NCBI RefSeq assembly: GCF_001304615.2
Contig: NZ_CP032683.1
Location: 2,232,001 to 2,296,000 of the forward strand
DNA length: 64,000 bases
Source of the DNA: Methanosarcina flavescens
GTDB lineage: Archaea; Halobacteriota; Methanosarcinia; Methanosarcinales; Methanosarcinaceae
Direction of reading: 5' to 3'
Shown piece by piece: positions 15,531 through 44,901 of the stretch. Each line of letters starts with the position of its first letter. Position 1 is the first letter of the stretch. The notes under the pieces were generated by a model. It was not told where the DNA came from, did not search any database, and saw only the letters and a program-made list of their open reading frames with translations. A program made the position numbers and the translations under genes.

Positions 15531-16256
15531 TCACACAACTGCCTTTCTGAACTGATACGTTCCAAGAAGCACCATAATCCCGGCTCCTATAGCAAGGCCG
15601 ATGATCCCGTTAACAGGTATTCCTCCTTCAAACAGCATTCTTGCACTGTCGATTGCATAGCTCACCGGATTAAGCTTTGCCAGTGTCCTCAACCAGGCAG
15701 GCATAACTTCGTAGGGCATAAGTGCGCTACTCGTGAAAAACAGGGGCATGCTGATCATGCTGTTCGCGGCTGCGTAACTATCATGGTCACTCAGATAGAG
15801 TCCTATCATGGTTGAGAAGGCAGAGAATAAGACCGAAAACAGGAACAGTGTTAGATATATCAGAACTATATGTATAGGGTTCAATATCCTTACTCCAAGA
15901 AACGTAGCTATCAAAAGGATCACGGTCGCCTGAAGTAATCCTCTTACGCTGATAAAGAGGATTTTTCCGTACAGCATACTTTCTCTCGGGGAAGGCATTG
16001 CAAGGAATTTATTCAAAAAACCCAGTATTTTATCGAAAATCATAAGCGATCCTCCCTGAAGGGAAGAAAAAAGGGTTGTCATAACAAGGATGCCAGGAGT
16101 GATAAATTGAAGATAATTATCAGTAAATTTTGTGGGCAGGGCAAGCCCAACAAATACAAGCCAGGCTGCAGGCATTACAAGCGACGAAATAACAGTTACT
16201 CTTCCTCTCAACCATTTTACAAAATCCCTTTCAAAATAGTAGTATATTGCTCTCAT
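15531..16256 (-). CDS. ABC-2 type permease (DrrB-like)
   Basis: A 241-residue membrane protein with about six helices of the ABC-2 class. It has the typical N-terminal YFERDFVKWLRGR, a long central hydrophobic block, and the LNPVSYAIDSAR motif before the last helix. Its ATG overlaps the TAA of the ATPase gene (TAATG), so the two are coupled and form one exporter. It is the last gene of the long minus-strand operon containing ECF transporter and chelatase genes. The exported compound is unknown. Confidence 0.88.
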   Translation of the reverse strand: MRAIYYYFERDFVKWLRGRVTVISSLVMPAAWLVFVGLALPTKFTDNYLQFITPGILVMTTLFSSLQGGSLMIFDKILGFLNKFLAMPSPRESMLYGKILFISVRGLLQATVILLIATFLGVRILNPIHIVLIYLTLFLFSVLFSAFSTMIGLYLSDHDSYAAANSMISMPLFFTSSALMPYEVMPAWLRTLAKLNPVSYAIDSARMLFEGGIPVNGIIGLAIGAGIMVLLGTYQFRKAVV

Positions 16257-17023
16257 TATCTCCGCCTCAGAAGATTCCTGAACTGTGTGGAATTAAACCC
16301 TGCCTGCTCCTCAGGAGTTTTGACTTTCTCTAGAAAAACGTCATTGAGAGAAGCATTTTCTCCTGCTGAGCTTACAAGATTCTCAGGAGATCCGATAGCT
16401 GTTATCCTTCCTTTGTCAATAATAGCAACCCGGTTACAGTATTTTTCTGCTTCTTCCAAGTAATGTGTTGTCATGAAAATAGTCATTCCTTCGGCTTTCA
16501 GCATCTTAATGTGTTCCCAGATCTTTTTTCTGCCGCCTACGTCCAGACCAAGGGTGGGCTCGTCAAGAAACAGGACTTCAGGCTCATGCACAAGCGCCTG
16601 GGCAAGTTCAAGGCGCCGCCTCATTCCTCCAGAGTATTTTGCCACAAGATCATCTGCGCGGTCCGAAAGCCCCATCATTTCGATCACTTCGTCTACTTTT
16701 GAATTCCTATCAAGAATTCCGTAAAGTTTTGCATAAAGCATCACATTTTCCCTACCTGTCAGCTTTCTGTCCACTGCCATATCCTGGGGAACATAGCTTA
16801 TTTTTGACCTCACCTTCTTTGAATCCTTAACAATATCATACCCGCAGACCTTTGCGGTGCCACTGCTCGGTCTTAGCAGGGTTGTAAGCATCATGACTGT
16901 CGTACTCTTGCCTGCCCCATTGGGACCCAGAAGTCCAAATATCTCATTCCCAACATCCAGATTCAGGTTATCTACAGCAAGCAGGTTCCCGAAGGATCGG
17001 GATAATTTTTTAATCTCTATCAC
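16256..17023 (-). CDS. ABC transporter ATPase (DrrA-like), partner of the ABC-2 permease
   Basis: A 255-residue ATPase with Walker A GPNGAGKST, signature YSGGMRRRLELA, Walker B VLFLDEPTLGLD and the H-loop MTTHYLEEAE. These sequences are closest to drug or lipid exporters of the DrrA type. Its start overlaps the end of the EcfT gene by four bases and its end overlaps the permease start, tying the exporter to the ECF importer in one transcript. Confidence 0.92.
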   Translation of the reverse strand: MIEIKKLSRSFGNLLAVDNLNLDVGNEIFGLLGPNGAGKSTTVMMLTTLLRPSSGTAKVCGYDIVKDSKKVRSKISYVPQDMAVDRKLTGRENVMLYAKLYGILDRNSKVDEVIEMMGLSDRADDLVAKYSGGMRRRLELAQALVHEPEVLFLDEPTLGLDVGGRKKIWEHIKMLKAEGMTIFMTTHYLEEAEKYCNRVAIIDKGRITAIGSPENLVSSAGENASLNDVFLEKVKTPEEQAGFNSTQFRNLLRRR

Positions 17024-17913
17024 AGGTATCCCCTGGCGATTGCATAAACAGGTCTTAAGCCTGAATTGTAATAAATTCCACTTGTATACATGTTGTAAAG
17101 AAACTTTATTATCACAATACTTAATGCTGCAAAAATGCAGAACATAACCACTGCTCTGTCAAATTCCGAAAATTCCAGTTTTTTGAGGTATGTCCTTTCT
17201 GTATTAGCCCGAAAAGCTCTGCTCTGGATGGAAACAGCAAGCGTACCTGTCCTCCTTACACAGTTTGACAGGGTAGGGGTCAGTATATTGAGCGATGTTT
17301 TGATAATTCCTGATCCAAACTTTTTAGGACTAAAACCCCTGAGCCTCTGGACTGTTATTACAGTGGTCACTTCGGTGATTATTATCGGAAGGAACCTGAC
17401 TGCTGTTACCACCATAAAAGCCACGCTATAAGGGACACTGAGTCCTACAAGGCCGTTTAACATATCTCTTGAATCCGTAGTCCAGCATATCAGTAGTCCA
17501 AGGGACATGATTGAAGCAGATCTCAAACCCTGAATTGCGCCGTGCTGAAGCCCTTCTGCATATACGAACAGTCCTCCATTTGTCATCCATCCCAGTACCG
17601 GAAAATCAGGGCTGATTATGGTAAAAATTACAGTCCTCGGAAGCTGGGAATAAAACAGGGCCTGGGAATAGACGGTTCCCCAGATTAAAAGTATGAGCAA
17701 TATTGCAAGGGTTTTGAGTTTTATTGCAGGCATCCTTGCGAGTGCAAAACCGGAAAGTACGATCAGAAACAGCAAAAACATGGTCTCAGGATTGTCAAGT
17801 GTTACTGCTACAAAAGCAACTGATATCAGAATCAGGATCTTTGCCCTGGGATCCATCCTGTGAATTATAGTGTCTTTAACTGTTGGCTCTGCAATTGATC
17901 TGACTCCTATCAT
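17020..17913 (-). CDS. Energy-coupling factor transporter membrane subunit EcfT (CbiQ family)
   Basis: A 297-residue integral membrane protein beginning with the CbiQ-family pattern DTIIHRMDPRAKILILISV. It carries several hydrophobic segments, and the coupling-helix region SIQSRAFRANTERTYLKKLEF corresponds to the Ala-Arg-x motif region that contacts the ATPases. EcfT links the substrate component to the paired ATPases. It lies 24 bases after the double EcfA gene. The cluster gives it a dedicated module, in contrast to shared-module ECF systems. Confidence 0.9.
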   Translation of the reverse strand: MIGVRSIAEPTVKDTIIHRMDPRAKILILISVAFVAVTLDNPETMFLLFLIVLSGFALARMPAIKLKTLAILLILLIWGTVYSQALFYSQLPRTVIFTIISPDFPVLGWMTNGGLFVYAEGLQHGAIQGLRSASIMSLGLLICWTTDSRDMLNGLVGLSVPYSVAFMVVTAVRFLPIIITEVTTVITVQRLRGFSPKKFGSGIIKTSLNILTPTLSNCVRRTGTLAVSIQSRAFRANTERTYLKKLEFSEFDRAVVMFCIFAALSIVIIKFLYNMYTSGIYYNSGLRPVYAIARGYL

Positions 17914-17937: not shown

Positions 17938-19683
17938 TCAACATTCCACTACTTCACAACTTCTATGAGCCAGTGTCTCTACAAGCTCTGTTATCGAAAA
18001 AGCATTAATTCCAAGATAGTTAGCAATCTCAACAACAGGCGGCTGGGTAAGAGATGCTTTCCTGAGGATATCTGTATTCCTTATAACATCTCTTCCCTTC
18101 CCATCCGCTATAATCTGACCCTCGCTCATCACAAGAATTCTTGTGGCATAGAGCATTGCAATCTCAATATCATGGGTACAGAACACAAGCGTGGAACCTT
18201 TATTTTTGAAATAATCCATCATCTGCTCTATATTTACTCTATCCTGCCCTGTTGTAGGTTCATCAAGAAGGACAAGCTCTGGGTCAATAGAGAGTACCGA
18301 GGCAACAGCTGTCCTTAATCTCTGACCTCTGCTCAATGATTGGGGAAGATCCTGCTTGAGATCTAAAATCGACATCGCTTCCAGGGAAATCCTTGTCCTT
18401 TCCTCTATATTTTCTAACTTTAACTGAACAGGTCCAAACATCACCTCTTCCTCGGCTGAATTGCAGAAAAGCATAAGGTCCGGGTTCTGGAATACGAGCC
18501 CTATTCTGCCTGCAAAAGAATACGGATTTTTTGACTCTGTATCTTCTCCGAAAACCTTTATGCTTCCTTTATACGGCTTAAGTATGGATGCAAGATTTAG
18601 AAGCAGGGTTGATTTACCTGATCCGTTTGTACCCATAACCGCAACCCTTTCGCCCCTGCATATTTCCAGATTTATGCCTTTAAGCACCATCCGATTTTTA
18701 TCATACCCGGACCACACATTCTGGATTGAAATCAAAAGTTCGTTATTTTCTGCAGAGCAGCCCTCAGGATTGATTCTTTTTTCCAGATCATGATGTGTTA
18801 TGTATCTCTCCGTTTTTTCTTTAAAATCTCTATTATTCAGCAGAGGAATTGTTTCCTCTGCACTGAATGGTCTCGCCTTTATCCCCAAGGTGTGGCAGAG
18901 CTCGACAGGTACGGGAACCCGAAGACCCAGCCTGTGAAATATCTCCAAATGGTCAAAAGCGTCGGGGGCAGGCTGGTCGAAAATTATTTTTCCGTTATCC
19001 ATTATGACGATTCTGTCTGCAAAAGGTGCAATTTCGTGCAGCCTGTGCTCAACCAGCAAAATGGTTATCTTCATTCTCTTGTTGAGTTCCCTAACAGTGT
19101 TCAGTATTTCCTGTGTGCCTGCAGGGTCCATCTGGCTTACAGGTTCGTCCATGGCAAGGATTTCAGGCATCATCGCGAGCATGCTTGCAATGCAGACCCT
19201 CTGCTTCTGACCCCCTGAAAGAGCATTCGTGGAACTCAGCCTGTGTTCTAGCATTCCTACCATCCGGAGAGCTTCTCCTACCTTTATATCAATCTCTTCT
19301 CTTTCTATGCAGAGGTTTTCAAGCCCAAAGGCTACTTCGTCTTCAACAGTTGTAGAAAAGATCTGGTCATCGGGATTTTGGAAGACAAGCCCTACTTTCC
19401 TTGAAAGCTCTACCTGGTTTAAATCACCGATTTCTGTCCCCATGATTTTTATGCTGCCTGAAAATATTCCCTCGGATTCGTGTGGAATTATGCCGTTGAG
19501 TGTTTTGAGTAAAGTGCTCTTCCCACAGCCTGTAGGTCCGGTCAGGAGAACGAATTCTCCTTCCTCTATTTTCAGATTGACTCCTTTCAAAGTCGGTTCC
19601 GATCTACCCGGATATGTGTACCACAAATCTTTGATCTCTATTATTGTGCCTTCCTTATTCTGTTTTCTAATATCATCTCCCAC
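17938..19683 (-). CDS. Fused ECF transporter ATPase (EcfA1-EcfA2)
   Basis: A 581-residue protein with two CbiO-type ATPase domains. Domain 1 has Walker A GPTGCGKST, signature LSGGQKQRV and Walker B ILAMDEPVSQMD. Domain 2 has GTNGSGKST, LSRGQRLRT and LVLLDEPTTGQD. Both halves look catalytically complete. It powers uptake through EcfT and a membrane substrate component. It begins at a GTG preceded by a GGGTGGT site, 37 bases after the gene for the exported/membrane protein that is the best candidate for that component. Confidence 0.93.
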   Translation of the reverse strand: MGDDIRKQNKEGTIIEIKDLWYTYPGRSEPTLKGVNLKIEEGEFVLLTGPTGCGKSTLLKTLNGIIPHESEGIFSGSIKIMGTEIGDLNQVELSRKVGLVFQNPDDQIFSTTVEDEVAFGLENLCIEREEIDIKVGEALRMVGMLEHRLSSTNALSGGQKQRVCIASMLAMMPEILAMDEPVSQMDPAGTQEILNTVRELNKRMKITILLVEHRLHEIAPFADRIVIMDNGKIIFDQPAPDAFDHLEIFHRLGLRVPVPVELCHTLGIKARPFSAEETIPLLNNRDFKEKTERYITHHDLEKRINPEGCSAENNELLISIQNVWSGYDKNRMVLKGINLEICRGERVAVMGTNGSGKSTLLLNLASILKPYKGSIKVFGEDTESKNPYSFAGRIGLVFQNPDLMLFCNSAEEEVMFGPVQLKLENIEERTRISLEAMSILDLKQDLPQSLSRGQRLRTAVASVLSIDPELVLLDEPTTGQDRVNIEQMMDYFKNKGSTLVFCTHDIEIAMLYATRILVMSEGQIIADGKGRDVIRNTDILRKASLTQPPVVEIANYLGINAFSITELVETLAHRSCEVVEC

Positions 19684-19720: not shown

Positions 19721-21295
19721 TTATTCTGCCACCTTTTTCAGTCTGTTTCCCAGGCTTATTCCGAACCAGGCTCCTATGAAAGTGTAGAGAAACCCGTCTA
19801 TCAGGATATTCGCTATTATGTACCAGTTGCTATAAAACAGCCTATAAAGCACCATCCAGACGTTGAAGGAAACATACCCGCTGATCATATCCGCAATTCC
19901 GCACACTATCCCTACCCGCAACCTGTTTTCCGGATCAGGATTTTTGCCGGTTATGCCTGCAGTATACATCATAACCTCCAGAATCACCGCACTCACAGAA
20001 AGCGTTATAAAACTAATCGGGGTGAAGCTCCCGGTTATAAAGCCTCCAAGAAGGAACCTGACCATCGTAAAAAGGCTAACCACTCCAGGTTTTGGGATCA
20101 GGACAACAAGCGAAGCAATAAGCATGTAAAGAAGGATCTCATAAAAGAGCCCGGTAAACAGGAAGCTGAAAGGTCCAAGTATTGCATGGGATAGCTCCCA
20201 CAGGATTGTCATCGGCAGGTTTATGGCTGCAAAAGAAACTGTGCCAAAAAGGGAAATAAGCACAAGGTTGCGGGTTTTAAACCTGCTCATTATCTCTTTT
20301 GACTTTATGAAGAAGAGGCTGACTGCGGTCAGTCCGAGCAATGTGGAGGCAAATGTAATCATTATAGGCCCCCATTTCCTTGAGATTGCAGTTATTTTTT
20401 GGTTCCGGGTTGTTGCAACCCAGTCACTGCCTGTGAGTTTAACGTCTACTCTGAGCAGATAATCTCCTCCCATTGCATTATCCAAAATATAGAGTGGGAG
20501 GCTTACAAGTGAACTTGAGTCAGGAGGAAGTGTTAACGCGGCATAGCAGAAGGTATCTGCTTTCATCCCCATCAGCGTCGGCTTGAAGGCTTTTACAGGC
20601 TCCCCTGTATTGATGTCAAGAATATCATAGGTAACTACAACTGGTACCGTATTGTTTCCTTTGTTTGAAATCTCCACTCCAATGAAGGTTGAAGTAAGTT
20701 CTTCCCTGTCGATCTGGAGGTCCGTAACCTTTAGAAGCTTTTTGAGAACAGGAGATGTTTCCCGAATAATAAGAGTATTGGAAGGATAGCTCGGGTTTCC
20801 ATATCCATCCTCATCTGACGGTATTATCAGTCCGGAGACTAAAATCTCATTTGCGACTTCATCTTTTGAGGCAACCCTGAGCTGCGTTTTGCGAACAATG
20901 GTATGCTTGTTCCCATCAACGTCAACAACTGCAGTCGCAGTTATATCGTAGGTTCCGGAAGGCAGATCCTTTGGAATATAAATATCAACGAGCCTGTACC
21001 AGTCTTCATACTCGGTCTGAAGAGAAAATGACTGGACAGGCGTATCCCGGAGAACGAAACCCTCAGGTAAATCGATCTCTAGAGTCACATTCATATTTCC
21101 ATTATAATAGCTCTCAAAAAAAACGTACGCAGAAAGGTTACTGCCTCCTACTGCAAGCCCTTTCCCTTCCACGCCATGTGGGACCTGAAGCATGAATGCA
21201 GTCATCTCTTCAAGCTCAAATTCCTCCTGTGCAAGGGCTATTGTCGGCTGGAAGACGAGTAACATTACAGGGAGGAGATAAGCTATGTTTTTCAT
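19721..21295 (-). CDS. Exported beta-domain protein fused to a probable ECF substrate-component membrane domain
   Basis: A 524-residue protein with three parts: a signal peptide (MKNIAYLLPVMLLVFQP, cut near ALAQ); about 300 extracellular residues rich in beta strands and resembling NEW/Ig-like adhesin repeats; one membrane helix near residue 320; then six or so helices (residues about 345-515) with Gly/Pro/Asn-rich loops such as FSFLFTGLFYEILLYMLIA. The last part looks like an S component of the YkoE/HmpT kind, and its position directly before EcfA and EcfT fits that role; this is inference, since S components are too divergent to assign by eye. I chose the ATG at 21295, 14 bases after the CobN stop, over an earlier in-frame ATG inside cobN. 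Confidence 0.72.
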   Translation of the reverse strand: MKNIAYLLPVMLLVFQPTIALAQEEFELEEMTAFMLQVPHGVEGKGLAVGGSNLSAYVFFESYYNGNMNVTLEIDLPEGFVLRDTPVQSFSLQTEYEDWYRLVDIYIPKDLPSGTYDITATAVVDVDGNKHTIVRKTQLRVASKDEVANEILVSGLIIPSDEDGYGNPSYPSNTLIIRETSPVLKKLLKVTDLQIDREELTSTFIGVEISNKGNNTVPVVVTYDILDINTGEPVKAFKPTLMGMKADTFCYAALTLPPDSSSLVSLPLYILDNAMGGDYLLRVDVKLTGSDWVATTRNQKITAISRKWGPIMITFASTLLGLTAVSLFFIKSKEIMSRFKTRNLVLISLFGTVSFAAINLPMTILWELSHAILGPFSFLFTGLFYEILLYMLIASLVVLIPKPGVVSLFTMVRFLLGGFITGSFTPISFITLSVSAVILEVMMYTAGITGKNPDPENRLRVGIVCGIADMISGYVSFNVWMVLYRLFYSNWYIIANILIDGFLYTFIGAWFGISLGNRLKKVAE

Positions 21296-21308: not shown

Positions 21309-24300
21309 TTATTTGAGGATTTTTCTGATTTCCTGCATTTTCTTATCCCAGTCAGGAACATCTTCAAAGCTCACGATATTCACAGATCCACCCTGAAACT
21401 CTCCTTCTCCTGCCAGCTCTTCCATCCAGCTCTCTATTTCAAGGTAAGAGTTTTTCAGCTTTTCCAGAAGTTCAGGATCGGGGTTCCAGAGTCCTCTTGA
21501 CTGCGCCTCAAGGAGTCGGCGTGCCATCTCTTCAAGGGCATAGGGATTGTTCTCTTCAAAGAACCTGCGCATTTCTTCGTCGAGGACGAATGTTTTTGTG
21601 ATATCATCAAAGATCCAGTCGTCCACTTCCTGCGTGGAAGCCTCCCAGCCGTAGACTCTTCCAACTCTTTTAGAGATATCCTGTGCACCTTTATACCCAT
21701 GCTGTTTCATGCCTTCGATCCATTTCGGGTTTAGGAGTCGGCTCCGTACCACCCTGCGTATTTCATCTGCCATGTCCCGGACTTCAACATGCTGGGGCTC
21801 TCTCGTATCTCCGAAATAGACCCTTACTTCTTTTCCCGAGGCCTGTTTTGCAGCAGCCGTGAGCCCTCCATGAGTCCCGAAATAACAGCAGCAGCCAAGT
21901 AAGTCATACTCGTCACTGACCACTTTGTTAAAGGTGGCATCAACAGTCTTCAGGCTGGAAGCAAGCTGCATGTGAGCCTCTTTTCCTTTTACATCTTTTC
22001 CGTAAGCATAGCCATTCCAGTAAAGGAAGATGTCTGCAAGGTCTTTCTCGTCTTTCCAGGCACTTGCATAAACAGCGAGCTGCACCCCTGCCGAATAGGT
22101 TCCGGGTTTGCTTGAAAAAATCCGTAAGGTAGCTTCCCTGGAATCTGCTCCTTCTTCAATCATCCTTAGGCTGTGTTTTCTCGGATAGTTCATTTCCTCA
22201 GGTTCATTAAGAGAGGCTACAGCTTGGATAGCTTCATCTATAATCTCCAGGCAGTTCGGGAAGTTGTCCCTGAGGATTCCTGAAACCCTAACAGTAACAT
22301 CAATCCTGGGTCTGCCCAGTTTTTTAAGTGGAATAACATTGAACCCTTTCAGGTTCCCGTTGCTGAGCCAGACAGGTTCAACCCCGAGCAGGCTCATTAT
22401 CTGTGCCATACCCTCTCCATCAGCCCACATGATATCGTTTGCCATCCAGTAAAAGCCTACATTCTCAGGGTAACGGTTCTCGTCTCTTAGATGTTTATTG
22501 ATCAGTACCTCCGAAAGCTGTTGCCCAACTCTCCAGGCGGCTTTTGTCGGAACCTTTTTGGGATCAAGAGAATAGAAGTTCCTGCCTGTAGGCAGTACGT
22601 CGTCTTTTCCGCGCATGATAAGCCCGGATGGACCTGGAGGGATATATCCCCCTTCAAAGCCGTGGAGAAGTGACTCTATTTCCAGAGAGGCATCAATTCT
22701 GGATTCAAGATCAAGAATCCTTTCACAGATTGCAGCAGCGTCCTGAGAAAATACCGAATTTATGCTCGAAAAATTCTGTTCTTTGAAAACCGGTTCTATG
22801 ATACCAGGTTCTGTAAAGTTTTCTTCTGCAGTGTTATTCCCTATGAAATCCCTATCTGCCAGAATCTGTTCTATTAAAAATCGTTCTTTAAAAATATGTT
22901 CTGTAACTGTCTGTTCCATGAAGCTTTTTGCTGCAAGAATCTCTCTTATTATTAAGGACGGCTCTTTTTCCGGGTTATTTATGAATATCCTGATAAAGTC
23001 TTTTGAAAGGGAATCAATCTCCTCAATTCTCTGCCCATTTGACTTTCCATTTTCTGAAATCCGGCCCTGGTCAGATATCAGTTCGTCAAGGTCGAGCCCC
23101 AGGATTTCTGCAATCAGTCTGCGGATAGAAACCTTATTTCCCACACTTTCCTGGTCATCATACCTTAAAATCGAGTTTATGAACTCAACTTTTTTCTCGC
23201 CTTCAGGGATCTGCCCGAAGATATGCATTCCGTGGTGTATCTGGCTGTTCCTTATCCTTCCGAGGGCTTCATGTGCCCTTCTTACAATTTCTTCAAAAGG
23301 AGTCTCATGGACAGCTTTTATCTCTGAGTCAAGGTTCGATTTCTTAATCTCGTCAAGTATCAGATGTTTTAAAGCGTGCGTCCTGCCTTTATCGTGTTTT
23401 ACTTGCTCGTATTCCCCTAACAGCCTGTCAAGCTCATCAAGGCTTCCATAAAGCCCTCCTGCGGTCATGACTGTTTGCATATGATCAACAAGACAGGCAA
23501 GGCTTCGGCGTTTGGCGATTGTACCTTCAGGAGGGTTGTCAGAGTTGTAAATATAAAGATGGGGTATTGTTCCGATCCCTATATCAGGGTAGCAGTCTTC
23601 TGAAAGCCCAACCCCTTTTCCTGGCAGGAACTCAAGATTGCCGTGGGTTCCCACATGCACAAGCACATCGGCTCCAAAAGTATTCTCAAGATACCTGTAT
23701 GCCGCAATGTACTGGTGGGTTGGGGGAACTTCAGGATCGTGAAGGATCTTGCATACTTTTCCGTCACATCTGGCGCCTGCACATCCTCTTTTTGGCTGTA
23801 CACAGACCACAGCATTTCCATACTGTATTCCAGTAACTACGATTTTATTTTCGTAGACCATTGCAGCAGGAATGCCGTTTATCTCTTCTCCCGGAGGGTT
23901 TCCCCAGCTCTCAATTACCCTCTGCCTGACATGGGGGCTCAAGGTGTTGAAGAACTTCTCGTATTCTTCTTTTTCCACAAAAGCGAGAGCTCCGCCGTTC
24001 TTTACAATCTCGTTAATGGGAGTCCATCTGAACTCGGAAATTGCTTTTTTGCTCAGGATAGTGTCTATAAGCTCCTTGCCGTTAAGGGGAGGGTTTACAT
24101 TATAACCAGCCTCCTGCATCCGGTTGAGGATTCTTGCCAGGCTTTCAAGGGAATCAAGGTTAGCAGCCCCTCCTACCGATGCTTCAACCCCCGAACACGG
24201 CTTGTTGTGAAGGATAAAAGCAACTTTTCTCTCGCCAACAGGTTTTTTCTTGAGGGTTATCCATTTCAGAACCCTGGATGCAAGTTTTGAGCAGCGTTCC

Positions 24301-25295
24301 TCAATAGGGAAATGGCCCATGTAATTTTCTTCCACTTTGCCTGCGCCTATTACAATTGGCTCAATTACGCCTTCAAACTCAGGTAAAGCAACACTCCAGC
24401 CGATCTCGGTGCTTAAACCCTGCGACTCTTTCCACTGCTCTATGGTCATATAGTGTGAAATTACAGGCTGGAAAACAGGCACATCAAGTTTTTTCAGTAA
24501 CTCTACGCCTTTTGCTGCACATGAGGCTTCCCTCTCTTTCGCTTTGCTGCTGGCAATGAAGAATGGTGAAAGTTTTACAAGGCAATCTATGATGGGCTTT
24601 CCGTCTTTCATAAAGTAGGCTTCGATGACCTCTTCCATACTCCTGCTTCCAAGTTCTTCATCTTTCAGAGAGTATGCAAAAACAGGGATAACGGATAAAC
24701 CCAGATTTTCAAAACTACTTATTAGAGCCTTCTCAATCTCAAGTTCGTTATTTACCCACGAAGTCCTGGAGATCAGTAGCCCAATCGTTTTTTCTTGAAG
24801 GGGTCCGTACCATTTAAGGTACTCCTGAGTATCTGAGAAAATTTCTCCGGCATCAGGATGATAGAGTCCATCCCAGGGAATTTTTTTCGGAGGCTTTGCT
24901 TCTATTTCAGCGCCAAAAACCTCTTGTAAAAGGTATCTTAGCATATTGCTGAAGTTTTCCTTCCCTCCGTAGATAATATATGAAAAACATGTGGCTGCAA
25001 TTTCGAGTTTTACTGAAGAAAGAGTGAAGCTTGAGGGGTTGCTGCCAACACAGATTATGGGTATCCTTGATTTTAATGGTTCAAGCTTTTTATAGAAATC
25101 TTCCCAGAAGGGATTGGCTATGTGATAAATGAAGATAGCATCAGCGTTCTCACACGCAGCGAGCACATTTTCAGTTTCTTCGGGATTTTCCTCCAGGATT
25201 TTTGAGTAGTAAGCTTCAAGCTCTATTCCAAGCTCTTCTGCTGCCTTTAAAAGGGTAGGAATATATGAATTCCACGTTACAGAAACGATTTTCAT
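21309..25295 (-). CDS. cobN: CobN/ChlH-family metal chelatase large subunit
   Basis: A 1328-residue protein, the usual size for CobN/BchH catalytic subunits that insert cobalt or magnesium into tetrapyrroles. Recognisable blocks are GGAANLDSLESLARILNRM, TPINEIVKNGGALAFVEKEE, the highly conserved HQYIAAYRYLENTFGADVLVH region with VGTHGNLEFLPGKGVGLS after it, and GYAYGKDVKGKEAH then DLLGCCCYFGTHGGL. The ATG follows GAGGGTGA. Between the middle and C-terminal parts (residues about 790-847) there is an odd insertion with a 5-residue period. The motor subunits CobS and CobT are absent; the fused ChlI-ChlD protein at 31.3 kb is the likely partner. The metal is not predictable: methanogens make cobalamin by early cobalt insertion and do not need CobN for it. 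Confidence 0.93.
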   Translation of the reverse strand: MKIVSVTWNSYIPTLLKAAEELGIELEAYYSKILEENPEETENVLAACENADAIFIYHIANPFWEDFYKKLEPLKSRIPIICVGSNPSSFTLSSVKLEIAATCFSYIIYGGKENFSNMLRYLLQEVFGAEIEAKPPKKIPWDGLYHPDAGEIFSDTQEYLKWYGPLQEKTIGLLISRTSWVNNELEIEKALISSFENLGLSVIPVFAYSLKDEELGSRSMEEVIEAYFMKDGKPIIDCLVKLSPFFIASSKAKEREASCAAKGVELLKKLDVPVFQPVISHYMTIEQWKESQGLSTEIGWSVALPEFEGVIEPIVIGAGKVEENYMGHFPIEERCSKLASRVLKWITLKKKPVGERKVAFILHNKPCSGVEASVGGAANLDSLESLARILNRMQEAGYNVNPPLNGKELIDTILSKKAISEFRWTPINEIVKNGGALAFVEKEEYEKFFNTLSPHVRQRVIESWGNPPGEEINGIPAAMVYENKIVVTGIQYGNAVVCVQPKRGCAGARCDGKVCKILHDPEVPPTHQYIAAYRYLENTFGADVLVHVGTHGNLEFLPGKGVGLSEDCYPDIGIGTIPHLYIYNSDNPPEGTIAKRRSLACLVDHMQTVMTAGGLYGSLDELDRLLGEYEQVKHDKGRTHALKHLILDEIKKSNLDSEIKAVHETPFEEIVRRAHEALGRIRNSQIHHGMHIFGQIPEGEKKVEFINSILRYDDQESVGNKVSIRRLIAEILGLDLDELISDQGRISENGKSNGQRIEEIDSLSKDFIRIFINNPEKEPSLIIREILAAKSFMEQTVTEHIFKERFLIEQILADRDFIGNNTAEENFTEPGIIEPVFKEQNFSSINSVFSQDAAAICERILDLESRIDASLEIESLLHGFEGGYIPPGPSGLIMRGKDDVLPTGRNFYSLDPKKVPTKAAWRVGQQLSEVLINKHLRDENRYPENVGFYWMANDIMWADGEGMAQIMSLLGVEPVWLSNGNLKGFNVIPLKKLGRPRIDVTVRVSGILRDNFPNCLEIIDEAIQAVASLNEPEEMNYPRKHSLRMIEEGADSREATLRIFSSKPGTYSAGVQLAVYASAWKDEKDLADIFLYWNGYAYGKDVKGKEAHMQLASSLKTVDATFNKVVSDEYDLLGCCCYFGTHGGLTAAAKQASGKEVRVYFGDTREPQHVEVRDMADEIRRVVRSRLLNPKWIEGMKQHGYKGAQDISKRVGRVYGWEASTQEVDDWIFDDITKTFVLDEEMRRFFEENNPYALEEMARRLLEAQSRGLWNPDPELLEKLKNSYLEIESWMEELAGEGEFQGGSVNIVSFEDVPDWDKKMQEIRKILK

Positions 25296-25304
25296 ATTTC
25301 ACCC

Positions 25305-27023
25305 TCAGGTAAGGATATGCACTTTATATTCTCCGAGAACTGTGCCGTCTTCAAGCCTTGAAGGAGCTTCCAGGGCTGCAATATACCTGCCATCAGGCGA
25401 GATATCAGCAGATACAGTGATGCCTTCTGTGTTGTAAGTCTGAATGAGCCTGGAACTTGCTCCTCCTCTCTCTGATACGTCAAAAACATACACTCCGTGT
25501 CCACTTCTATCCTCAGTTACCAGGTTCTGGGCGAGAGGGATCACAAGGTAACGGTCGTTCAGTGCACATTCTCCGGCGTATCCATCCACTCTCCATTTCC
25601 AGAGAAGGTTGCCGTCATAATCATAGGCAAAGATAGTGTTCCCGCTGGGGTGTTCAAATGGAGCATCCTTGTTTTTATCTTTGGAGAAAGTGCTGCCAAT
25701 TGAAAAGATCAGGGTATCATTGACTATGTAGGCATAGTTCGCACTGCCATAAATGGGCACACCGCTCACAATTATCGGAGTTGAAATGTTCTTCTCCCAT
25801 GCAATTTCTGGGGTTCCGGTCTCGATGATCTCGGAGTTATTGAACAAAAAGGCCCTGCCGTCACTTGTCATTGTTATCAGCTTTTCTCCGTCAGGAGTAA
25901 TCTGCGTGCTGTACCAGATTGCCGAATAATCGAAAAATGGTTCAAGTGGCTGGATATGGTAGTTCCAGTGCTCTTGTCCTGTGTTTCCGTTCAGAACATG
26001 GACAGTGCCCTCTTTCCATTTATCTGCCTTTGTAAAACTGGTAGTGCCAAAAACAGCGTATTTTCCATCAGGAGTGGCATCAATCCATGCAACCCCAGAG
26101 TCCATGAGTTCGGATTCTGGGAATTTCCAGCGCATATTGCCTTCGGAATCAAAGGAATAGATTCTTGCCAGATACTTGTATTTCTCACCGATATAGCCAC
26201 ATGCCCTGCTGGCAGCAACATAGATATTCCCTTCCGAATCAAGTTTTATCTTTTTCGTGGCAGGCATATATTTGAGGTCTGAACCCAGATCCGTGCCTGC
26301 ACCAAATTTCCAGATTTCGGCGCCGTTAACATCGAAACAATACAGGAAAGCATCCGGACTTTCTTCACCCACAAAAAGGCGTTTTCCATCTTTTGAAAAC
26401 TCTATGTCTGCAATTCTTGCATCCGCTATCCCTTCAACGAGCTGCTTTTCCCATAGCTTTTCACCTGTTGCAACTTCAATGAGTTTCAGAGAACCTCCAT
26501 GGGTCCCGATTGCGAGATACTTGCTGTTTGGTGAGAATTTCGTTACACCTCTAATATTTGCATTGGTTTTTTCAATGTTTCCGGGAGTTACATCTTCGAG
26601 TTCTATGGTATATTCCTCTTTCAGGGCAGGTTTTGAGGGGGCATATGCTTCAATAGTGCTGGACTCCCCTGAGCCTGTTATCACTTCAAACCTGTACTGG
26701 GATTTGGGATTCCAATCAAAGGAGGCAAAGATATTGTCTTCCGTTTCTCCAACTTTCTGAGAAGTTATCTGTTCTTCACCAGAGTAAACCCGTATTTCCG
26801 ATATTTCTGTCACACTTTGCAGGGTAAGCAGAGCTCCAGCCCTTGAGAAAACTATAGAGTCTATAGGGACTCCTTCTGCAGAACTGCTTATTTCCCGCGT
26901 TTCCTGCATCCCTGAATCCGAACTTTCAATCAATGTATTGTTATTGGATTCCTGGCTTTTTTCAGCACATCCCGAAGCCATCAAAATCACAATAAGAAGG
27001 ACTATCAAAGATTTCCATTTCAT
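25305..27023 (-). CDS. Beta-propeller (PQQ/WD-like) lipoprotein 1
   Basis: A 572-residue surface lipoprotein. The signal peptide ends in LMASGC with the lipid-attachment cysteine at residue 19, followed by a Ser/Asn-rich tether, a small beta domain (to about residue 145) and a beta-propeller with blades marked by LAIGTHGGSLKLIEVATGEK, GKRLFVGEESPDAFLYCFD, DGKYAVFGTTSF and GNTIFAYDYDGNLLWKW. The ATG at 27023 follows AGGTGA; an ATG at 27038 would overlap the upstream gene. It lies 10 bases before cobN. Propellers of this class bind ligands or proteins; true PQQ cofactor is unlikely in an archaeon. Paralogous to the next gene. Confidence 0.85.
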   Translation of the reverse strand: MKWKSLIVLLIVILMASGCAEKSQESNNNTLIESSDSGMQETREISSSAEGVPIDSIVFSRAGALLTLQSVTEISEIRVYSGEEQITSQKVGETEDNIFASFDWNPKSQYRFEVITGSGESSTIEAYAPSKPALKEEYTIELEDVTPGNIEKTNANIRGVTKFSPNSKYLAIGTHGGSLKLIEVATGEKLWEKQLVEGIADARIADIEFSKDGKRLFVGEESPDAFLYCFDVNGAEIWKFGAGTDLGSDLKYMPATKKIKLDSEGNIYVAASRACGYIGEKYKYLARIYSFDSEGNMRWKFPESELMDSGVAWIDATPDGKYAVFGTTSFTKADKWKEGTVHVLNGNTGQEHWNYHIQPLEPFFDYSAIWYSTQITPDGEKLITMTSDGRAFLFNNSEIIETGTPEIAWEKNISTPIIVSGVPIYGSANYAYIVNDTLIFSIGSTFSKDKNKDAPFEHPSGNTIFAYDYDGNLLWKWRVDGYAGECALNDRYLVIPLAQNLVTEDRSGHGVYVFDVSERGGASSRLIQTYNTEGITVSADISPDGRYIAALEAPSRLEDGTVLGEYKVHILT

Positions 27024-27027
27024 TCTC

Positions 27028-28566
27028 TCACCTGACAATTATTAACCTGTGTTTTCCGGTTATATCCCCATTTTCAAGCTGCACGGGGATTTCGACTGCT
27101 GCTATAGTACAGTCTGAAGAGACCGCAGCACTCGCAACCACTCCTTCTGTATTGAATTTCCAGAGCAGTTTTGAATTCCCATTTCCGGGCTTCTGGAAAT
27201 CGAATACATGGATTCCGTGAACCTGAGTGTTTCCTGATGACGTATCTTTTCCTACTGGCAGGACGAGGTATCTCATATCAGGAGAGCAGAAAATCCCTGC
27301 ACAACGCCCTCCTAGATTATAGCTCCAGGAGATTTCTCCCGTCTCCACATCACATGATACTAGAGAATTTTCAAGGGGGTGTGCCATAGGGACATTTCTG
27401 GGATAATATACAGGAAGAGTGACTCCGGTAAGGTAAACTATTTCGTTTTCAGACACGATTTTAGCGTCTTCTCCGTAAGCATATATGACACTTCCTTCCA
27501 GTTCTTCTGGAGTTGTCACATTGGATTGCAATTCTTTGGAGTACCATTCGGATTTCCCATTTCCCGGTTTTTTAATTTTTGAATCATAAAACAGGTACTT
27601 TCTTCCGTCCCATGTATATACAGTTATTACGGAACCATCATCTGAAATATCAAGTCCGTGCCAGATAGCTGTAGAAACAAAATAAGGTTTAAGAGGCGGA
27701 ATTTCGTATTTCCAGCGGAGGTTTCCGGTTTCATCTACAGAGTAGACGACGGCATCAAGTTCAAGGGAATTTGTCCAGTCCCCGGTTGAAAAAACCACAT
27801 TTTTTCCATCCTGGCTTGAATCAATCCAGTTTACACTCCGAGCATAATTTTCATTTGCCGGCAGTTTCCAGGAAAGTGTACCATCTGAGCTGAACCTGTA
27901 CACTCTTGAGACCAGCCCGTAACCAGGTTCTTTCCAGTATCTACCTGCTGCGATGTATACGGCATCATCAGCAGCCGTTATTTTGTATATAGAAGGCTGA
28001 TATTTTGGGTTCTCACTGGTCCCCAGATCGTCGGCGCTTCTATAGCTGTGAATTTCAACCCCTGTGCCTGCATCCATGGAATAAATGTATCCGTCAGCAC
28101 TCCTTTCTCCTACAAGGAGATACTTACCGTCTTTCGAGAACGAAATGTCTGAAATGTTTCCATTTAAGGTCTTATTCCATAGCGGATTTTTGCCTGGCAC
28201 ATCAACAACTGTCAGGTTTTTCCCTGTCCCGACAGCTAAATACTTTCCGTTCTGGGAATATGCTACACAGTCCTGGATATTCGATCTTCCTTCACTGAGA
28301 TTTTCCGGCTTTATATCTCCAAGTTCATACTCCCAGTAAAGGTAAGGAGAAACTTTCTCAGAAGAAATTATATTTTCATGGCTCAGGGGATTGCTTGCCT
28401 GACCACTCTCACTATTGTCTGTTAGAATCTTTTCATTTTTTGAGATTTCTTCACTACTGTTATTCCCCTCTTCATCAGAGGCTGTGATATGTGAAGATAC
28501 ACATCCTGAACAGACCAGAAAAATAAATGAAAGTATAATTATCAGCACAATACTACCCTTTTTCAT
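27028..28566 (-). CDS. Beta-propeller (PQQ/WD-like) lipoprotein 2
   Basis: A 512-residue paralogue of the preceding lipoprotein. The signal peptide ends in LVCSGC (Cys22), then a Ser/Glu/Asn linker, then propeller blades such as GKYLAVGTGKNLTVVDVPGK, GKYLLVGERSADGYIYSMD and LVSCDVETGEISWSYNLGG. The ATG at 28566 has AAGGAG eight bases upstream and gives a standard signal peptide; the frame is open further up to 28620 but would place charged residues before it. It ends only a few bases before lipoprotein 1, so both are in one operon with cobN. Confidence 0.85.
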   Translation of the reverse strand: MKKGSIVLIIILSFIFLVCSGCVSSHITASDEEGNNSSEEISKNEKILTDNSESGQASNPLSHENIISSEKVSPYLYWEYELGDIKPENLSEGRSNIQDCVAYSQNGKYLAVGTGKNLTVVDVPGKNPLWNKTLNGNISDISFSKDGKYLLVGERSADGYIYSMDAGTGVEIHSYRSADDLGTSENPKYQPSIYKITAADDAVYIAAGRYWKEPGYGLVSRVYRFSSDGTLSWKLPANENYARSVNWIDSSQDGKNVVFSTGDWTNSLELDAVVYSVDETGNLRWKYEIPPLKPYFVSTAIWHGLDISDDGSVITVYTWDGRKYLFYDSKIKKPGNGKSEWYSKELQSNVTTPEELEGSVIYAYGEDAKIVSENEIVYLTGVTLPVYYPRNVPMAHPLENSLVSCDVETGEISWSYNLGGRCAGIFCSPDMRYLVLPVGKDTSSGNTQVHGIHVFDFQKPGNGNSKLLWKFNTEGVVASAAVSSDCTIAAVEIPVQLENGDITGKHRLIIVR

Positions 28567-28619
28567 TTTCAAACTCCTTTTCAGGCTCATCTTGAGGCTC
28601 CTTTGATTGCCTTTTATCA

Positions 28620-29201
28620 TTATCCATATATCTTGAGATCTGAGATACTCAAAATATTCTGATGCTGTGTACTATTGTCTCCAAAACCTGCACTCATTTT
28701 TTCAATTTTTATATTTTCAGCGGGACCGCAATATTTCTTATAATCTTCAATGAGATCTCTTTCAACTGTACCCATTGGAATTCCTGAGACTATGATCGAT
28801 GGGGAAAAACGCCTTCTGTTTTCCTTATCCCGATAATATTCACCTTCGGACTGCGGATTCATGCTCCCTGCTGCAACATAGTAAATGGACCTGTGATCAT
28901 TGAATGTTATTTTTAACCAGAGACTGAACCTATCCAGATCCTGCCCTTCCCAGTTCCAGGAAATTTTTCCTGGAGAAATGCTCACATTTTTACTCCACAC
29001 CCCTTCCCCTGTCTGTTCTGGATCCGTTGTATTTAGATACAGTACCCCGTCTTTGCATCTTAGAAGCTCCCCTTCAAAGCTGCAATCCTCAAAATTTTCC
29101 TGGTACAGGGATTTTTTCTCGGGCATAATTTGAGAGTAAAATATCAAGCCTGCAAAGCTGATGATGATAATTCCAAATATTATGGTCTTCCTGGAAACCA
29201 T
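28620..29201 (-). CDS. Small membrane-anchored exported protein, function unknown
   Basis: A protein of about 193 residues with one N-terminal helix (TIIFGIIIISFAGLIFYSQ) that acts as signal anchor, followed by an extracellular beta-rich domain (GVWSKNVSISPGKISWNWEG, IYYVAAGSMN). I do not recognise the family. An ATG at 29219 is an alternative start; neither has a clear ribosome binding site, and an AT box lies about 25 bases upstream, so the transcript may be nearly leaderless. It is the first gene of the minus-strand chelatase/ECF operon and probably acts on the cell surface with the two lipoproteins. Confidence 0.7.
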   Translation of the reverse strand: MVSRKTIIFGIIIISFAGLIFYSQIMPEKKSLYQENFEDCSFEGELLRCKDGVLYLNTTDPEQTGEGVWSKNVSISPGKISWNWEGQDLDRFSLWLKITFNDHRSIYYVAAGSMNPQSEGEYYRDKENRRRFSPSIIVSGIPMGTVERDLIEDYKKYCGPAENIKIEKMSAGFGDNSTQHQNILSISDLKIYG

Positions 29202-29552
29202 AATTGACACATAAATCATATAATTAATAAATATTTCGAAAATATACTTTAATGATCACATATAGTATTAAATAAATAATATTTATGACTACTATTTCTG
29301 AGCAAGTTTTTATTTGATAATAAATATTCCACTTTCTATTTTCATGTGTAAAAATAATTCTTTATAATGTATTCTTTCATATTCCATTACATTGATAACG
29401 AGATATTAATTGTTTTTCTACTGTATTTTATCCTGAATAATCTTATTTACTCTACACTATTCTCGATTTTAAGGTTTCTTTTAACAATATAATCCTTTCA
29501 TCAAAATAAAAAAGCGCAATTGTTATATATTGCTACAATATTTCTCATTTTT
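29202..29552. promoter_or_regulatory. Divergent promoter region of the chelatase/ECF locus
   Basis: 350 very AT-rich bases separating the minus-strand operon from the plus-strand S-layer-like and ChlI-ChlD genes. On the plus strand, TTATATATTG (29522-29531) lies about 27 bases before the ATG at 29553, the spacing of a leaderless archaeal transcript. Several AT boxes on the minus strand could serve the other operon. No clear operator palindrome was found. Confidence 0.45.
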
Positions 29553-31313
29553 ATGGATAATAGTAACAATAAATTCAAAAAATTTATTAATTTTTATATT
29601 ATTTTTTTTATTTCAATAGCTTTAGTTGCTATCGATCCGGCGAAAAGTGCCATTGACCAGCGAGGTCCTCTCATAAATATTTCAGCCGGAGAGTATGTAA
29701 TCCTCAATGGAGAAAACTGTCCAGGATTTTACTATTCAACGTCTACCGGCACATATTACGAGTCGCTGGAGCTTTATTTCTCCGAAGACGGGCTTATTGA
29801 GACCGGAAATGCAACGTATACTTCAAAAGTCATTTCCGGCTCCACTGGCTTTTTTGGAAAAAAATATAAAGTCTTTGAAGATGGATTGATCACGGAAAAT
29901 CTGGTTAGCTATGGAAGCCGGGATCTCCAACAGGGGAATGATTACGATCTTGGGAACGGCTATAGACTGGTACTGCTCGGGATAAACGATGAATCTGCTC
30001 TTCTTGAACTCCAGAAAGACTTTCTCCCCGTTACCAGCAAATCCGTTGATGAGGGCTCAAAATTTAATTTTACAGCCACAATAAACGGGAATAAGTATGT
30101 GATTCTTGAAGGAACTCTAGACAGGGTTTTCAACAGTAAGGATCCGGTTGTAAGTCTTGTAAGCGTAAACCAGTATTCGACTGCACCTATTGAAATCAAA
30201 GTTGGGGACCAGTATGGCAATTTTGAGGTCACAGAGGTTACAGATGATAAAATAGAACTGAAAAATAGAGTGCCTATAAGGATGAACCCCGGAGATTACG
30301 TAACAATTCTTGAAAATTTGATTGATTTCAGAGTGGCTGATAATGTCTATAAGGCATGTTCTTACAATATGACTAAAGATGTTATTAACTCATATAAGAT
30401 AAAAGGAGCCTCTTTAACTGTAAACCGCTCGGATTCTTCTCCGGATTCCTGTGTATGGACAGCCGACTCTTTTGGTATGCTTTATTATGATCTTGAAAAC
30501 GATTTCAGTACTGAAAGACTTGAACTCAACCTTGATGACGAAATAGACTGGATCCCGGAAGGTGGTCTGGTTTATGAATCTTCACCTGTCAGGGTTCCAT
30601 ACAAAAATCCAGAGATGAAGGATTATGGAGAAAATGCTTATAATGGCGGATATTCTGTGCTTGGATGGGATGGGGAGAAGTATGCATATCTTGGAGACAA
30701 TCAGGGAATTGTAAATATCCTTATGGATGATGATAATGACAGACGTCTCTATTCCGGTGAAGAATGGGATCTTGGAGAAGGGTATACCCTGAGAGTAGAT
30801 GATATAAAGTCGGATAGAGTCTACCTGACAGTTTTGAGAAATAATGTTGCGGTTTACTCAAGCATAATCTCTCCAGGAAATTCGGCTGATATTGGTACAC
30901 ATACTCTCTTGTATAGAAAAAATGTAAATGGTGTTGAAATCCCCCTATTTTCCGTATATGTGGATAATGTCCTGGAAGGAAGCGGAAACTCATGTGTAAG
31001 CCTGAAATATCCTCTACACTTTTCTGAAAGCCCTCTTGAAATAAATGTCGGGGAAACATTCGGCTCACTTACGGTCGTTGAAACTTATCCTAATATCCGG
31101 CTTGAAAATAAAAATACTCTTAATTTTGGCTCGGACCTCAAAGTCACAGAAGAAATCCATCTTGGCTCCTTTGAAAAGACGACAGGAGGAAAACTCAGTG
31201 TTACCTTTTTCCCCTTCATGAATAAGGTGGAAAAGGTGGATTCTGTTCTTCCTACAACCACCCAGCGGTCTATTCCGGTTATGAGCCTTGAAGAATACCT
31301 TATCGGAAACTGA
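29553..31313 (+). CDS. Secreted S-layer duplication-domain protein
   Basis: A 586-residue exported protein with an N-terminal signal peptide (FINFYIIFFISIALVAID, cut near KSA). It has two copies of the Methanosarcina S-layer duplication domain: paired landmarks are KVGDQYGNFEVTEVTDDKIE (about residue 215) and NVGETFGSLTVVETYPNIRL (about residue 500), each after a GNGYRLVL or GEGYTLRV block. The major S-layer protein of this group carries a C-terminal membrane tether; none is visible here, so this copy may be released or held by contact. The ATG at 29553 is preferred over an upstream TTG. It is followed 20 bases later by the ChlI-ChlD gene, so both are likely co-transcribed. Confidence 0.85.
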   Translation: MDNSNNKFKKFINFYIIFFISIALVAIDPAKSAIDQRGPLINISAGEYVILNGENCPGFYYSTSTGTYYESLELYFSEDGLIETGNATYTSKVISGSTGFFGKKYKVFEDGLITENLVSYGSRDLQQGNDYDLGNGYRLVLLGINDESALLELQKDFLPVTSKSVDEGSKFNFTATINGNKYVILEGTLDRVFNSKDPVVSLVSVNQYSTAPIEIKVGDQYGNFEVTEVTDDKIELKNRVPIRMNPGDYVTILENLIDFRVADNVYKACSYNMTKDVINSYKIKGASLTVNRSDSSPDSCVWTADSFGMLYYDLENDFSTERLELNLDDEIDWIPEGGLVYESSPVRVPYKNPEMKDYGENAYNGGYSVLGWDGEKYAYLGDNQGIVNILMDDDNDRRLYSGEEWDLGEGYTLRVDDIKSDRVYLTVLRNNVAVYSSIISPGNSADIGTHTLLYRKNVNGVEIPLFSVYVDNVLEGSGNSCVSLKYPLHFSESPLEINVGETFGSLTVVETYPNIRLENKNTLNFGSDLKVTEEIHLGSFEKTTGGKLSVTFFPFMNKVEKVDSVLPTTTQRSIPVMSLEEYLIGN

Positions 31314-31332: not shown

Positions 31333-33372
31333 ATGAGAAACCATAACTTTACTGTCTACCCTTTTACTGCAATAGTCGGGCAGGAAAAAATGAAGAAAGC
31401 TCTTATCCTGAACGCTATTAATCCAAAAGTAGGAGGAGTTCTGATTAGAGGTGAAAAAGGTACTGCTAAATCAACGGCAGTCAGAGCTCTAGCCAATCTC
31501 CTTCCTGAAATCGAGGTAGTTCAAGGCTGTAAATTCCACTGCAATCCCCATGATATAAGCACAATGTGTGAGGAATGCCTTGAAAAAGTTAAATCAAGAA
31601 CTCTTAATATTTCTTTTGAGAAAATGAAAGTTATTGATCTGCCTGTAAGCGCTACCGAAGACCGGGTTGTAGGAACTCTTGATATCGAGCATGCAATCAA
31701 GAAAGGGGAAAAACGCTTTGAACCCGGGGTACTTGCTTATGCACACAGGGGTATTCTGTATGTAGATGAAATTAATCTTCTGGATGATCATCTTGTAGAT
31801 GTGCTCCTTGACTCTGCAGCAATGGGAGTAAATACTATTGAAAGAGAAGGGATCTCCTATTCTCACCCTGCGAGTTTTGTGCTTGTAGGCACCATGAACC
31901 CTGAAGAAGGGGAACTTCGACCTCAGTTGCTTGATCGTTTCGGTTTATGCGTAGATATAAAGGGAATCAGGGATGTAGCCCAAAGAGTGGAACTCATCAA
32001 GTACAGACTTAGCTATGAGGCTGACCCTGAGACTTTTGCAGCAAGCTGGCAGGCTGCAGAGTCTGAACTCCGTGTACAGATTCTTCTGGCGCAGAAATTG
32101 CTTTCTGATGTGAAGATCTCGGACAGCATGCTTGAACTGGTCAGTCAGATCTGTGTCGATATGGGGGTAGACGGACATAGAGCGGATATTACGATGATGA
32201 AAACCTCAATTACGCTTGCAGCTTTCAATGGGAGGACTGAGGTGCTTGAAGAGGATGTGAAAGAGGCTGCGGAATTAGTCCTCCCACATCGTATGCGCAG
32301 AAAACCTTTTGATAACCCTTCCGAAAAGCAGGATAAATTGAATGAGAGTATCGAAAAACAGAGGGAAAAGCAAAAGAAAAACGAACAGAAAAAAAAAGAA
32401 CATAAAGAACATTCAGAGAAAGCACATACTCAGCCCGAAGAGCAGAAGTCCGATTCCACGCAGGATGTTGCCGGAGAACAACCTGATGCTTCCTCAGAAA
32501 CAATTTTTGCAACAGGAGAAAGTTATCAAATAAAACAATTGTCACCCGATTTTCGTAGAAATAAGCGAAAAGGATCTGGTCGACGCAGCAAAACTTTGAC
32601 GAAATCCAAACAGGGCAAGTATATAAAGAGCAAAATTCCCAAGGGAAAAACCACAGATCTTGCTTTTGATGCCACTTTGAGGGCAGCCGCTCCTTATCAG
32701 TTTACGCGGGGAAAAAACGGTAATTCCATAATAATTCATGATTCCGATTTCAGAAAGAAGGTCAGAGAGAAAAAGATCGGTAACCTTGTTCTTTTTGTGG
32801 TAGATGCCAGCGGTTCCATGGGGGCTCAGCAGCGGATGGTAGCCTCCAAAGGTGCAGTTCTTTCAATGCTGATGGATGCTTACCAGAAACGTGACAAAGT
32901 TGGACTTATTGCTTTTAAAGGGGCAGGGGCAGAGCTGATACTGCCGCCAACCTCCAGTGTGGAAATAGCACAAAAATATCTGGAGAAACTTCCGACCGGA
33001 GGAAAGACTCCTCTTCCTCATGGGTTAATGAAAGGCTATGAAACCATAAAGGCAGAACTCCGCCGCGATCCAGATACCTGTCCGTTTATGGTTCTTATTT
33101 CTGACGGGAAGGCAAATGTCAGTATGTATGGGGAGCCACCCCTCCAGGAAACAAAAAAAATAGCTTCCATGTTCAGAGAGGAATGTATACAATCGGCAGT
33201 TATTGATACAGAAAGCAGCATGATTAAGTTCGGGCTTGCCAGGGAAATTTCCAATTCTCTTGGAGCCCGATATCTTGCACTTGAGGACTTAAAGACAGAT
33301 TCCATAGTTGAAGCTGTTCGGGCTTCAGCCCCATTCGAGTTTTCATTTCCCTCAGGCAGCTTTTCAATTTGA
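31333..33372 (+). CDS. Fused ChlI-ChlD chelatase motor (AAA+ ATPase plus VWA domain)
   Basis: A 679-residue protein. The N-terminal AAA+ domain has Walker [10 protein letters not shown] (about residue 36), a Cys-rich insert ([17 protein letters not shown], possibly zinc-binding), Walker [15 protein letters not shown] and sensor [21 protein letters not shown] Lys/Glu-rich linker (residues 335-400) leads to a VWA domain with a complete MIDAS: DASGSMG (about 489), GGKTPLP and SDGKAN. Such proteins use ATP to drive the large chelatase subunit, here the CobN protein encoded across the divergent promoter. GAGGTT precedes the ATG. Cytoplasmic. Confidence 0.93.
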
Positions 33373-37582: not shown

Positions 37583-37613
37583 AGTCTGAAAAGGGACATT
37601 TTCAGGAGAAATT

Positions 37614-38504: not shown

Positions 38505-38506
38505 TC

Positions 38507-39364: not shown

Positions 39365-39415
39365 TTAGAGTTTCATTATAATATATCAGGTCTTATATGA
39401 CAATGAGGTCCCTAA

Positions 39416-40192: not shown

Positions 40193-40197
40193 TTGGA

Positions 40198-44856: not shown

Positions 44857-44901
44857 ATTTACCAAAAACTATATATGTTGGTAAAGCATATAATACCATG
44901 T

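Follow-up and report, generated by a model that had tools for sequence, protein, structure and literature searches.

Can an ECF importer carry an extracellular domain on its own S component? S components are known as small proteins embedded in the membrane, and they deliver substrate by toppling within it. In the window, by which we mean the whole 64,000-nucleotide stretch of Methanosarcina flavescens DNA analyzed here, one gene encodes a protein in which a large extracellular region is joined to a six-helix membrane domain. The first-pass annotation had proposed this layout, a signal peptide followed by an extracellular beta region and six helices, directly before EcfA and EcfT genes, and the sequence, the hydropathy profile, the AlphaFold2 model of the ectodomain, and the gene order all agree with it. 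The features of the protein are as follows.

19721-21295, minus strand: ectodomain–six-helix fusion gene, 524 aa (sequence)
21227..21295, minus strand: signal peptide, residues 1-23, MKNIAYLLPVMLLVFQPTIALAQ (sequence, hydropathy, and start codon context)
20846..21205, minus strand: extracellular beta-sandwich domain 1, approximately residues 31-150 (AlphaFold2, pLDDT 77-90 per 10-residue block; Foldseek)
20381..20707, minus strand: membrane-proximal extracellular beta-sandwich domain 2, approximately residues 197-305 (AlphaFold2; second-family profile alignment in some orthologs; conserved in the distant homologue G425)
20306..20374, minus strand: anchor helix TM0, residues 308-330 (hydropathy; a helix in the AlphaFold2 model)
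19724..20278, minus strand: putative six-helix S-component domain, residues 340-524 (profile homology to the second family described below and to PF09819; small-xxx-small motif in helix 1)

The ATG at 21295 is preceded by a plausible AAGG-like ribosome site and lies 13 nt after the cobN stop. The AlphaFold2 model of residues 26-305 shows a pair of beta sandwiches (pLDDT 76-90 in most blocks), and a Foldseek search with this ectodomain returned Ig/FnIII-like tandems such as RbmA, WxLIP, and pilins. The anchor helix is expected to run N-out/C-in. Six hydrophobic segments follow at residues 341-516, and the loops predicted to be cytosolic carry positive charge; hydropathy and loop charge together thus predict six helices, the first starting and the last ending on the cytosolic side. 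The C terminus (residue 524) falls approximately eight residues past helix 6. Orthologs of the fusion are present in 25 genomes, including named Methanosarcina genomes, with identities of 54-97%. In the most distant of them the membrane domain (339-524) is 67-68% identical vs 44-51% for the ectodomain, and the anchor helix is weakly conserved, at 27-36% in distant orthologs. Many ectodomain positions are nevertheless invariant among the 25. The order cobN - fusion - ecfA-A' was found in 24/24 loci examined, which, along with the orthologs in 25 genomes, argues that the open reading frame is not a product of chance. A scan of viral contigs for relatives of the fusion returned none.

The fusion gene is the fifth of nine minus-strand genes in the order LP199, propeller 2, propeller 1, cobN, fusion, ecfA-A', ecfT, ABC-2 ATPase, and ABC-2 permease, beside which two divergent genes are located.

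28620..29219, minus strand: LP199, a 199-aa membrane-anchored extracellular protein with no Pfam family, a domain of which forms part of the S protein in G425
27028..28620, minus strand: beta-propeller lipoprotein 2, lipobox CSGC, PQQ_2 (PF13360) over the cut-off, conserved in the operon
25305..27038, minus strand: beta-propeller lipoprotein 1, lipobox ASGC, PQQ_2 (PF13360) over the cut-off, conserved in the operon
21309..25295, minus strand: cytosolic CobN/ChlH-type chelatase large subunit (PF02514; NF004646 above the cut-off)
17938..19683, minus strand: EcfA-A', a fused double ATPase with two ABC domains (TIGR04520/TIGR04521 above the cut-off)
17020..17913, minus strand: EcfT of the CbiQ family (PF02361, E 1.9e-22; matches the solved EcfT structures 4hzu, 4huq, and 5d3m)
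16256..17023, minus strand: ABC-2 type exporter ATPase, its start overlapping the ecfT stop, conserved in the operon
15531..16256, minus strand: ABC-2 type exporter permease (PF01061, E 2.5e-30), conserved in the operon
29520..31313, plus strand: S-layer-family gene (PF07752), divergent and conserved beside the operon
31333..33372, plus strand: ChlD/ChlI-type AAA+/VWA chelatase partner (PF01078, PF17863, PF13519)

The nine-gene order is kept in the Methanosarcina loci that were read at length and in a second genus (G102). In G019, which belongs to another family and is represented by a short contig, the stretch running from cobN through the ABC-2 permease keeps its gene order, so that conservation of the operon spans two families and three genera. 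Wherever the flank extends far enough, the ChlD/I gene adjoins the operon. In the distant G425 it adjoins cobN, and there is a 4-nt overlap between the fusion gene (L075:3278-5266) and ecfT. The G425 fusion carries at its N terminus a homologue of LP199 (blastp 9.8e-9; hmmsearch 4.5e-10). Since a domain of LP199 is there fused to the S protein, LP199 probably acts together with the S component in the window operon as well. The nearest solved relatives of the operon CobN are CobN (7c6o, 589 bits) and ChlH (561), ahead of HmuS (373).

Direct searches with the window fusion protein gave no Pfam or NCBIfam match. For PF09819 (ABC_cobalt), the group to which YkoE belongs, the curated cut-off of 25.2 bits was not reached, as the window protein had no match and the best member of the fusion family scored 18.2 bits. 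Three relatives match PF09819 directly, below the cut-off and in one register (L032, E 0.004; L033, E 0.012; G425, E 0.003), and the G425 homologue also matches PF09605 along its length. The controls, namely reversed sequences and ten other membrane proteins, gave no S-family match; chance weak matches between membrane proteins do arise, as with CcsA to 7TMR-DISM at 3e-4.

The connection is carried by a second archaeal family of 359-365 aa, consisting of a signal peptide, one Ig-like domain, an anchor helix, and six helices. Its members (L097:7713-8804, L099:6109-7188, L100:7435-8514, L101:2571-3662, L102:304-1383, L103:3059-4150, and L113:1498-2595) are located beside more distant EcfT genes, and EcfA-A' and EcfT adjoin them where the locus reaches that far. 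The second family thus resembles the window fusion in its signal peptide, Ig-like ectodomain, anchor, six-helix domain, and EcfA-A'/EcfT partners, but it has a single Ig-like domain rather than two, and its usual neighbors are genes for DUF3344 secreted proteins rather than CobN and the propellers. No NCBIfam model matched the three members tested. One member, L103, passes the PF09819 cut-off (30.0 vs 25.2 bits), and the others score 15-22 bits or have no match.

A profile of the second-family six-helix region was searched against 1548 ORFs. It retrieved its own members, then all of the fusion-family proteins (31.9 to 13.2 bits, E 9.9e-9 to 6e-3), and then PF09819 S components. The first unrelated ORF appeared at E 0.38, preceded, apart from these families, only by a fragment of the window gene. 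E-values from such local searches refer to small sets, and the bit scores are to be weighed together with the controls: 520 block-shuffled and 26 reversed copies scored ≤4.6 bits, compared to 13-32 bits for the real domains. The alignment covers the whole domain (model 1-174 vs fusion domain 2-184) and includes a (W)xxxYxxWY-like segment common to both families. The window fusion itself has modest scores of 14.6 bits with the six-helix profile and 23.2 bits with the full-length profile. In several orthologs the full-length profile also runs through the membrane-proximal Ig-like domain (residues 204-513). A profile built from the fusion family was dropped as evidence, as shuffled copies of its own members also scored high, which we attribute to block shuffling preserving composition; profile evidence is accordingly taken from the second-family profile alone.

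Helix 1 provides a further point of comparison. In all 18 sequences compared from the three families, positions 348 and 352 hold small residues, and in the fusion proteins position 348 is S or A and position 352 is T or A (26/26). The window protein has S348xxxT352 and lacks the literal alanines of an AXXXA motif, as do several PF09819 members. Such small residues in helix 1 distinguish S components that bind EcfT from receptors sharing their fold (PMC11109136). Like the window domain, PF09819 proteins have six helices and EcfA neighbors, their genes adjoining EcfA genes in most loci examined, and the matches between the two are weak and in register; plain PF09819 members differ in having no ectodomain. 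On this sequence evidence, the fusion family is related to PF09819 but lies outside that Pfam family as its cut-off defines it.

The gene linkage points in the same direction. An EcfT ortholog (E below 1e-130) is present in 24 of the 238 genomes of the class, and all 24 carry the fusion. One genome, G176, has the fusion and no EcfT ortholog; it is 87% complete and in 220 contigs. The window genome encodes four EcfT proteins, and the other three genes sit with CbiM, CbiM/NikM-like, and BioY genes. The first-pass annotation had named a separate S gene for this EcfT as one observation that would count against it; none was found, each of the other EcfT genes having its own S gene, and no PF12822, PF07155, or PF09819 gene was found elsewhere in the genome. 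An S component of an undescribed family could conceivably be encoded there. As judged from operon structure, S, T, and A are encoded together with one S per module, as in group I (dedicated) transporters. Based on the S-component homology, the exclusive EcfT linkage, and the S genes that accompany the other EcfT genes, we consider it highly probable that the fusion is the S component of a dedicated, group-I-like ECF importer, joined at its N terminus to two Ig-like domains through an anchor helix. The proposal that the membrane domain is an S component is therefore supported by homology through intermediates to PF09819, by linkage, and by the lack of another S gene in the families searched.

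The architecture is not unique to the window protein, as judged from sequence, but recurs in at least two archaeal families. Since the second family is present in Methanosarcina and other groups, ectodomain-fused S components appear to be a class and not an oddity. The N-terminal Ig-like ectodomain appears to be a new variation on known S components, although an earlier description may exist outside the open-licence literature. Other arrangements were also observed. Several PF09819 S components (L080:847-1980, L081:1441-2508, L082:1468-2496, L087:814-1887, and L088:1465-2529) have a C-terminal helix and extracytoplasmic domain, at the opposite end from the ectodomain of the window fusion; that of L081 weakly resembles an oxidoreductase molybdopterin-binding domain. 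Elsewhere the PF09819 S gene is immediately preceded by a gene of its own for a ∼265-aa extracellular protein anchored in the membrane (L083:659-1465, L084:602-1417, and L089:1828-2616). This protein has no Pfam family (L083 tested) and is perhaps an unfused counterpart of the ectodomain.

The ectodomain may function as a substrate receptor. A serious contender, which we stop just short of calling probable, is that it is instead a docking or scaffold module, either orienting the S component or tethering it to LP199, the propeller lipoproteins, or the S-layer. Docking or scaffolding is possible because the membrane domain is the more conserved half of the protein, the ectodomain evolving faster. 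The Ig-like tandems returned by Foldseek are common adhesion and scaffold folds, the membrane-distal part is swapped for an LP199-like domain in G425, and the second family has just one Ig-like domain. However, the many invariant ectodomain positions in the 25 orthologs would fit a binding site equally well, and the two roles are not mutually exclusive.

As the S component of a dedicated importer, the fusion could work as follows. The propeller lipoproteins, LP199, and the ectodomain would concentrate or hand over substrate at the surface, and the six-helix domain would bind it in an outer-loop pocket, especially at the invariant WMxLYRLFYxxWYxxxN stretch, the position of which is predicted from the topology. 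By analogy with known ECF transporters, the domain would dock on EcfT via its small helix-1 residues, and ATP hydrolysis by EcfA-A' would reset the complex. The anchor helix and ectodomain would stay upright as the six-helix domain moves, with the short cytosolic linker 331-341 as the likely hinge. Lastly, the operon suggests that CobN, with ChlD/I, probably receives the substrate in the cytosol; this could be a (metal-)tetrapyrrole that is metallated or demetallated there. With its S domain tethered to an upright helix and ∼280 ectodomain residues, such a protein would make the toppling model directly testable, as the tether must either hinge or block the movement.

With respect to the substrate, the gene neighbors suggest that it is perhaps a tetrapyrrole. 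Across 26 sequences the S domain has the invariant polar residues R413, R485, and E440 and many invariant Tyr and Trp, and it has no invariant His, Cys, or Asp. This composition favors an organic and possibly aromatic ligand, such as a tetrapyrrole, over a bare metal ion. Corrinoid-binding S components exist, an example being BtuM (PMC6072759). Alternatively, the importer could supply the CobN-ChlD/I chelatase with its metal (an ion of Co, Ni, Mg, or Fe), an unlikely reading in our estimation, though one with several points in its favor. A metal chelatase is encoded in the operon, and EcfT scores as CbiQ family, though under the cut-off of the cobalt-specific model (65.5 vs 111.8 bits). The CbiMNQO and NikMNQO importers, like the fusion system, have dedicated EcfA and EcfT. 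CbiN and NikN can occur fused to the S component. Also in favor, the CbiM/NikM metal S components are usually paired with this extra N component (PMC2667541, PMC6828968); the accessory part of the window fusion differs in being an ectodomain of ∼280 residues with an Ig-like fold. Against the metal reading, CbiM/NikM sequences gave no match to the six-helix domain, in which the metal ligands conserved in that family, its Met-His at the N terminus, and any invariant His, Cys, or Asp are all missing. MHI is present in the CbiM proteins that the genome does encode, and these could already supply cobalt or nickel. CbtX is an old predicted cobalt transporter found in all five Methanosarcinales then sequenced (PMC2667541), and the fusion protein may be CbtX.

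For the S component with an organic ligand, a surface-to-cytosol salvage route for a (metal-)tetrapyrrole can be tentatively put forward, and we would not be surprised to see it fail. The propellers, LP199, and ectodomain would capture the substrate, the ECF transporter would import it, CobN-ChlD/I would insert or remove the metal, and the ABC-2 exporter would expel a by-product. If this is true, an S component working while tethered would constrain the toppling model of ECF transport. HmuS operons of Bacteroidota are comparable in that a CobN-family protein adjoins uptake genes (PMC12583661). However, the HmuS heme de-chelatase is membrane-anchored and its reaction has no need of ATP, whereas the window CobN has no evident anchor, is accompanied by ChlD/I, and scores lower to HmuS than to CobN or ChlH, and the window transporter is of the ECF type. 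In methanogens, the operon connects a putative ECF importer with CobN-ChlD/I, a cytosolic chelatase. According to a 2025 study, the archaeal use of HmuS/CobN/ChlH homologs is unclear (PMC12583661), and the window operon would provide a genetic handle on it.

Structure prediction was less informative for the membrane domain than for the ectodomain. AlphaFold2, run on the full protein with 9 sequences and on the membrane domain alone, gave a membrane domain with pLDDT of only 35-46. Foldseek and VIA-align searches with this low-confidence model returned BAR domains and GPCRs, with no S component among the returns, and a PDB sequence search with membrane profiles gave no match. Comparison by hhalign with S families and other membrane proteins placed RnfD best and was discarded, as the profiles were too shallow; the first membrane-profile matches in G082, G084, and G085 were likewise RnfD where read. 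The low pLDDT, the direct Pfam matches below the cut-off, and the RnfD-like match would suit an unrelated membrane protein that is merely sited in the operon. We regard this as very unlikely, given the bridge-family homology with its clean controls, the RnfD match being local and the S-family matches end to end, and an EcfT that would be left without an S component. Least probable of all is a regulatory sensor with the S-component fold, for although an N-out/C-in helix ahead of six helices resembles H0 of the 5TMR histidine kinases (PMC11109136), the window protein has no cytoplasmic signalling domain and stops soon after helix 6, has small residues at the EcfT-contact positions, and is strictly linked to EcfA-A' and EcfT.

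Several minor observations accompany the S component and its operon. The cobN of G425 consists of two overlapping ORFs (L075:6972-9320 and 9304-10785), near which a periplasmic-binding protein (PF01497) is encoded. In the window, an IS200/IS605-type element at 44461-46014 contains a TnpA-like ORF on the minus strand and a TnpB-like ORF on the plus strand, and a second TnpA-like copy is located at L095:4-360. The window genome has four further large CobN-family proteins with a signal peptide and a C-terminal anchor (L095:5738-10975, L095:14542 to end, L096:3652-8013, and L096:8491-13089). Their genes form one cluster near genes for ExbB-like and DUF2149 proteins and a corrinoid-binding-like protein, and the four look like HmuS-like surface chelatases. 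Finally, the protein encoded at window positions 14267-15220 resembles PhoU but is AbrB-like in its N-terminal part, and the pst operon for phosphate transport at 36470-40848 includes a phoU of its own.
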